A DNA stretch of 64,000 nucleotides from an uncultured Chloroflexota bacterium (GTDB lineage Bacteria > Chloroflexota > Dehalococcoidia > Lucifugimonadales > UBA1127), in NCBI GenBank assembly GCA_913045315.1, contig CAJWQJ010000002.1, positions 1 through 64,000 of the forward strand. The letters run 5' to 3'. A model generated the notes under the pieces. The model was given only the letters and a program-made list of their open reading frames with translations, was not told the DNA's origin and did no database searches. Position numbers and translations under genes: made by a program. Below, piece by piece: positions 8,192-9,255 of the stretch (positions are counted from its first letter, which is position 1; each line of letters begins with the position of its first letter).

Positions 8192-8704
8192 TCAGTTATT
8201 GTAAAACCAAAATTTTCTCCAAAACTTCCAGTACCATGTAACTGCAATTATTACCGGACCCATTGTCCACCAAGCTGAATAACTATAAATCGCAACTTGA
8301 TCATGAGCTCCGAAATTTGATGTGTCCAATGCAAATCCTGACAAAATTATCAACTGGGCAAATAGTACAACAAGAGTAAGTATAATGAAATTTGTTATGG
8401 TATAAATATATTTGTCATTTGGTGTGGCAATAACGACTGATGAAACTATTACTAGACCATAATAAAAAGAGAAATTATGAACATTTAATATATTAACATT
8501 CGGTCCAATGTGAGTATTTTCCCTAGATAACACAAAACGATTCCCTTCTGTAATTACGTTTACATCAAGATAACTAAATGGATATGACATTAGCGTGTCT
8601 ATAGCACTCGATAACTTATCAGCTAACCCTATAAATCCTACTATGGATAGTAATACTATGAAAAATATAATTTTAATGTGTGTGTAAATACCAATATAAC
8701 TCAT
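8192..8704 (-). CDS. Exosortase-H-associated-like membrane protein
   Basis: A 170-residue protein with about four membrane segments and one extracytoplasmic stretch of roughly 55 residues after the first segment. The segment NFSFYYGLVIVSSVVIATP resembles the conserved middle of the membrane protein that accompanies exosortase H (a Pro/Phe-x-x-Tyr-x-x-Gly pattern followed by a hydrophobic run). Its ATG overlaps the exosortase-like gene's stop codon by 4 bases, so the two are translationally coupled. The assignment rests mainly on that coupling and on weak sequence likeness. The function of such partners is not established. Confidence 0.5.
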   Translation of the reverse strand: MSYIGIYTHIKIIFFIVLLSIVGFIGLADKLSSAIDTLMSYPFSYLDVNVITEGNRFVLSRENTHIGPNVNILNVHNFSFYYGLVIVSSVVIATPNDKYIYTITNFIILTLVVLFAQLIILSGFALDTSNFGAHDQVAIYSYSAWWTMGPVIIAVTWYWKFWRKFWFYNN

Positions 8705-9180
8705 AAAGAATTCTCTCTAAAAATCCAGCACCCCCAAATGAAAATTGCTGAAATAATCATCATCGGTTGCCAAATCAATACATGGATCATATCAAAATAT
8801 TGAGTATTAAAACTTAAGAGAAAAAATAAACTGGTTAGTCTAATCATATTTATCAATGAAAGAAGAAAAAAAGCTATTACTATAATATAAAGTTTCTTTT
8901 TCATATGAACAGGAGTGATTATTGCTCCAATTATTAACACCATAAGGGGTGCTGTAATTGTACACTCTGGAATAATTCCAAATCGAGTAGAGTCAGCTAT
9001 AACCCATGATCCATTAACAGTGGGTTCCTTACCTAAAATTTTAAGTGACCAGAATAATAATTTAGCTGTTATTTCGCTTGTAATAATTCCCAAATTAGTA
9101 ATCAAATAAATCGAGTACCATTGAAGTGCTATGTAAAGAGCAAATGCACCAATAATTATTCGTTTCAGACTAATGTTCAT
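8701..9180 (-). CDS. Mini exosortase, exosortase-H-like
   Basis: A multi-pass membrane cysteine protease or transpeptidase candidate of about 159 residues. The exosortase/archaeosortase triad is visible in order: Cys in IPECTITAPLMVL, Arg in LINMIRLTSLFFL and His in FDMIHVLIWQPMM. The stretch NMIRLTSLFFLLSFN followed by IHVLIWQ closely resembles the exosortase H (XrtH) pattern, and the short length fits that subfamily. Such enzymes process proteins with a C-terminal sorting signal (IPTLxxWG for XrtH). No such substrate is seen in this window. The ATG at 9180 is preferred to the upstream TTG at 9192. The downstream coupled gene is its likely partner. Confidence 0.72.
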   Translation of the reverse strand: MNISLKRIIIGAFALYIALQWYSIYLITNLGIITSEITAKLLFWSLKILGKEPTVNGSWVIADSTRFGIIPECTITAPLMVLIIGAIITPVHMKKKLYIIVIAFFLLSLINMIRLTSLFFLLSFNTQYFDMIHVLIWQPMMIISAIFIWGCWIFRENSL

Positions 9181-9255
9181 ACAAGAATCCAAGCTTTTAT
9201 TACATTAAGGATATAATATGATTCATTATTATATTTTTTTAATGGTAAAGTAAAA

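Follow-up and report, generated by a model that had tools for sequence, protein, structure and literature searches.

Two short membrane-protein genes that overlap on the minus strand of a 64,000-nucleotide stretch of DNA from an uncultured Chloroflexota bacterium (the window, 36% GC) raise the question of whether they encode a protein-sorting system and, if so, what that system acts on. A first-pass annotation had placed at positions 8192-9180 a stand-alone, XrtH-like mini exosortase with a coupled membrane partner, a minimal system with possibly an undescribed C-terminal signal. Both open reading frames (ORFs) do exist at these coordinates and on this strand:

8701-9180, minus strand: exosortase, divergent XrtH type, 159 aa from the ATG at 9180
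8192-8704, minus strand: membrane protein, partner of the exosortase, 170 aa
8701-8704, minus strand: ATGA overlap, read from the sequence, combining the exosortase stop codon TGA and the partner start codon ATG

The Exosortase Gene and Its Homologs

The exosortase ORF encodes a membrane protein of 159-163 aa, depending on whether translation begins at ATG or at an alternative in-frame TTG at 9192 (8701-9192; about 163 aa). Its conserved core consists of Cys77, Asn115, Arg118, His137, Trp141 and Gln142 (numbering from TTG). The protein passes the superfamily signature TIGR04178 (exo_archaeo) with 29.2 bits for a cut-off of 23, and its top specific model is TIGR04177 (exosortase H; 46.8 bits, E 2.9e-12), of which it is the sole match in its own genome (1.45 Mb, 89% complete). 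The proposed XrtH-like identity was therefore borne out as the best specific assignment, albeit 39 bits short of the curated TIGR04177 cut-off of 86 bits; the same check against exosortase models left the partner unmatched. Chance resemblance to exosortases is excluded by the signature score together with the invariant residues, and on sequence grounds the product of 8701-9180 is a real exosortase-family protein. A classical PEP-CTERM/EpsH exosortase was likewise rejected, as PF09721 (EpsH) gave only 19.5 bits (cut-off 25.7) and no polysaccharide genes were found among the neighbours examined. The structure is predicted with a pLDDT of 90.4 as a helical membrane fold (helices 9-31, 33-52, 80-92, 97-128 and 130-161) in which helix 2 is followed by three short strands before helix 3, and searches of the PDB by sequence and by fold returned no credible homolog.

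Exosortase homologs were detected in 14 of 60 genomes, the window's own included, using a single-protein search, and in 29 of 250 genomes of the order using a profile; the single-protein search of viral contigs gave no matches. The named records among the relatives are SAR202 cluster, Dehalococcoidia and Chloroflexi metagenome-assembled genomes and one Candidatus Fraserbacteria. The Cys, Arg and His residues noted earlier as standing in exosortase order are indeed invariant, as is the Asn of Asn-x-x-Arg, in all 27 aligned homologs. The XrtH model matched each of the 12 family members scanned: two relatives exceed its cut-off of 86 (L163, 101.4 bits; L166, 88.6 bits) and three fall slightly under it (L171, 85.8; L164, 85.0; L019, 83.2 bits). 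The window exosortase is highly divergent and long-branched, forming among the 27 homologs a well-supported, long-branched pair with the sequence from genome G029. Note also that the five loci of family f30 genomes (L028, L147, L148, L150 and L152) carry exosortase homologs that have no partner; the Cys is preceded by Gln rather than Glu, and two of the homologs have Ser in place of the Trp of HxxxWQ. These genes adjoin a conserved gene that appears CoA-transferase-like, and several of them a second conserved gene as well.

A Conserved Membrane Partner

The four-base ATGA overlap suggests that the exosortase and its partner are translationally coupled. This arrangement is not peculiar to the window: a partner homolog, recognised with a seven-partner profile to which exosortase loci of the order contributed six sequences, is encoded beside the exosortase at 22 of 28 loci in the order, in most cases overlapping it by a few bases, and in two of these loci both are fused into a single ORF (G092, L144:3869-4951, minus strand, 360 aa; G091, L149:3310-4452, minus strand, 380 aa). 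The coupling to a 170-residue membrane partner thus stands as first described, and the partner is, as far as comparison of sequences goes, a genuine and conserved companion of the exosortase. The description of the system as stand-alone or minimal has to be abandoned, since the pair recurs and since NCBIfam already records, for XrtH, an exosortase encoded with a small membrane protein (NF041730, XrtH-associated membrane protein).

The window partner matched no NCBIfam or Pfam model. Its fold, predicted with a pLDDT of 73.7, comprises an N-terminal helix, a beta hairpin (48-61) and three further helices, and no credible homolog was found in the PDB by sequence or by fold. NF041730 matched only two partner homologs, both below its cut-off of 35, from G059 (19.6 bits, E 8e-4) and from Candidatus Fraserbacteria (23.0 bits, E 5.4e-5), and nothing exceeded that cut-off across 400 genomes of the phylum. 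These scores leave room for a partner that arose separately and shares no ancestry with the XrtH-associated membrane protein, a reading compatible with our main explanation and possible, if on the unlikely side; the model nevertheless singles out precisely the exosortase neighbour in G059 and Candidatus Fraserbacteria, and the partners are similar to the XrtH-associated protein in length, place and membrane character. The window partner is thus probably a distant XrtH-associated membrane protein. As a separate observation, the Fraserbacteria homolog (L171:6269-7078, plus strand) has a C-terminal metal-binding motif of SEC-C type (CTCGSGKKFKHCCG) and weak matches to TIGR04102 and similar models.

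A Candidate Substrate Elsewhere in the Genome

The downstream neighbour of the pair is an MFS transporter (PF07690), and neither a PEP/IPTL target nor exopolysaccharide genes occur among the neighbouring genes examined, as the first-pass annotation had remarked; a scan of contig C2 for proteins with a signal and a tail gave no credible target either. What that remark did not anticipate is that a likely target lies elsewhere in the genome.

The relatives indicate what kind of tail to expect. The IPTL_CTERM model (TIGR04174) scored above its cut-off in five of 60 relatives (G059, G042, G006, G050 and G051), all five of them exosortase-positive (hypergeometric p about 4e-4, with 14 of 60 genomes exosortase-positive), and their tails align as TPIPGxxxWGL followed by a helix and an Arg-rich, basic end. 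Directly upstream of the exosortase are encoded a secreted subtilase in G016, an FG-GAP/RCC1 protein in G007 and a Kelch protein in G082, each having an IPTL-like end or at least a C-terminal helix and a basic end. G007 also encodes a second protein (L203:3784-4539, plus strand, 251 aa) that has a bacterial Ig domain and a WDAPSMSGWG tail resembling the one on the FG-GAP/RCC1 protein just mentioned.

In the window's own genome, the search for proteins with a motif, a helix and a basic tail, made with pattern and profile queries and in selected stretches of sequence, yielded one candidate, which is a homolog of the G016 upstream subtilase:

G000:C9:74397-77093, minus strand, on a different contig from the pair: subtilase with fn3 domains, candidate substrate, 899 aa

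This protein starts with a signal-like helix, contains Peptidase_S8 and fn3 domains and has the C-terminus VGPVMNVWGIGIVGAFVLITLIYLSNKRKI, in which Gly-Pro-Val-Met-Asn-Val-Trp-Gly is followed by a helix and a basic end. A DNA pattern for Pro-x4-Trp-Gly-hydrophobic matched the own genome six times and its reversed control four times, so that the pattern alone is not evidence; five of the six matches were not C-terminal tails, as they fell in short ORFs or inside longer proteins, and the sixth is the C-terminus of the subtilase. The profile of the other genomes' tails had no convincing match in the own genome, and since the subtilase tail scores close to zero against it (0.1 bits), the tail is not identified by profile and the assignment rests on homology and physical features. 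A profile including the subtilase tail recovers the subtilase alone, a match that is circular, and at that sensitivity no second protein. The best own match to IPTL_CTERM (contig C14, 13.1 bits), a multi-helix protein of 735-759 aa, was dropped because it lacks the Pro..Trp-Gly motif and because the same kind of protein was matched in G034. Concerning the C-terminal signal that had been thought undescribed, the tails of the relatives are in fact a variant form of IPTL-CTERM, a known signal, and it is the tail of the own likely substrate that is more diverged.

The support comes from comparing subtilase homologs. A C-terminal helix with a basic end occurs in all nine complete C-termini from pair-bearing genomes (G000, G006, G016, G024, G035, G051, G059, G237 and G238), compared with a helix in one and the motif in none of 15 complete C-termini from exosortase-free genomes (Fisher p 7.6e-6 for the helix and 1.2e-5 for the motif, values that are optimistic, as the genomes are related, several being close kin, so that independence is overstated, and as the tails counted as having the motif were chosen after they had been seen). 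The 899-residue subtilase is thus likely to be a substrate of the exosortase pair. Adjoining it is a small ORF (L202:6082-6390, minus strand) that looks lipoprotein-like, and whose end, DPDGNGVGCED, resembles an excalibur calcium-binding motif.

Cell Envelope and Proposed Mechanism

The cell in which such a system would operate seems to lack both a peptidoglycan wall and an outer membrane. MurA (TIGR01072), a single marker read in an incomplete genome, did not reach its cut-off in any of four genomes, and its weak matches are probably to the related EPSP synthase; Omp85 (PF01103), subject to the same limits, was matched once in G059 but not at all in the window genome, G029 or G016. These results agree with the reports that SAR202 genomes have no peptidoglycan or LPS genes while S-layers are present (PMC11994032), and that the Chloroflexota count as monoderm bacteria (PMC10284905).

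Taking these data together, we consider it probable that the pair forms a C-terminal sorting machine of the XrtH type, in which the partner is a subunit or docking factor and the subtilase is the substrate. The observations on which this model is based are superfamily membership, active-site conservation, the conserved cassette, its fusion and the co-occurrence of tail and cassette; from them we infer the cleavage, the role of the partner and the fate of the new C-terminus (attachment to lipid or glycan, or release). The subtilase would be exported by Sec and retained in the membrane by its C-terminal helix and basic tail. It would then be docked, assisted by the partner acting as a membrane subunit or substrate-docking factor, and be cut near the Pro/Trp-Gly motif by the exosortase, which would be a cysteine transpeptidase/protease embedded in the membrane, with Cys, Arg and His in its active site. 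The new C-terminus may be attached to a membrane lipid or a glycan, or simply set free, these being the options because peptidoglycan and, apparently, an outer membrane are lacking. A narrower version, in which a pair serving this single subtilase joins its C-terminus to a membrane lipid in a streamlined, wall-less monoderm SAR202 cell, a bacterial route of lipid anchoring comparable to that of archaeosortase A, the partner being a true subunit of the enzyme, is offered tentatively and is, taken as a whole, rather doubtful.

The subtilase tail might instead be nothing but a membrane anchor, the exosortase acting mainly on other substrates with a different C-terminal signal. The weakness of the tail by profile would fit this, as would an assembly that is 89% complete and the lack of any detectable target in G029, which carries the closest exosortase relative. 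It is nonetheless an unlikely account, given that subtilases keep the tail where the pair is present and are mostly tail-less where the exosortase is absent, and that in G016 the tailed subtilase is the gene immediately upstream of the exosortase. Very improbable is a relic, or a pair recruited to another membrane function, as the exosortases of f30 may be: the long branch of the window exosortase and the f30 genomes, which retain a partner-less exosortase and whose subtilases have no tail, speak for it, but the active-site residues and the overlap with the partner are intact, and the substrate tail has been kept in a small, AT-rich genome.

Relation to Known Systems

The sorting machine we favour is closest to XrtH (TIGR04177), with which the window exosortase shares the short form of about 160 residues, the ECT...NxxR...HxxxWQ core and its best family score; it differs from that family in scoring 46.8 bits, below the cut-off of 86, and in belonging to a lineage apparently without outer membrane or peptidoglycan. 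NF041730 likewise describes a small membrane protein encoded with an exosortase and weakly matches two partner homologs, although the window partner is unmatched and no tested member of the partner family reaches the cut-off. IPTL-CTERM (TIGR04174/PF18203) offers the same succession of Pro...Trp-Gly, hydrophobic helix and basic end at the C-termini of secreted proteins; its consensus is IPTLxxWG, whereas the version found in the order is TPIPGxxxWGL, with several relatives above cut-off, and that of the window genome is GPVMNVWGI, a form that the model fails to detect. The pair may thus be described as a diverged system of the XrtH type, a known kind that has a partner and an IPTL-like signal, and a single likely substrate was detected for it. 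Archaeosortase A of Haloferax volcanii, which acts on PGF-CTERM proteins, belongs to the same superfamily, although its motif and its clade differ. There, tripartite C-terminal signals are processed in S-layer cells without peptidoglycan and cleavage is linked to lipid attachment (PMC7157517), an attachment that for the window system is one possible outcome.

No paper linking an exosortase with SAR202 and no biochemical work on this clade was found in the literature, and as far as it was searched, the spread through SAR202/Dehalococcoidia, the fused forms and the specific candidate substrate appear to be new. Most discussion of exosortases concerns Gram-negative cells, in which it is unclear how the proteins cross the outer membrane and where they are finally attached (PMC12188702). 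In cells without peptidoglycan and apparently without an outer membrane, fewer end points are possible for an exosortase product, namely a membrane lipid, a surface glycan or release, and the question of attachment is correspondingly simpler to address. The fused exosortase-partner proteins also make both components available on one polypeptide chain for structural studies of a family to which our PDB searches turned up no relative.
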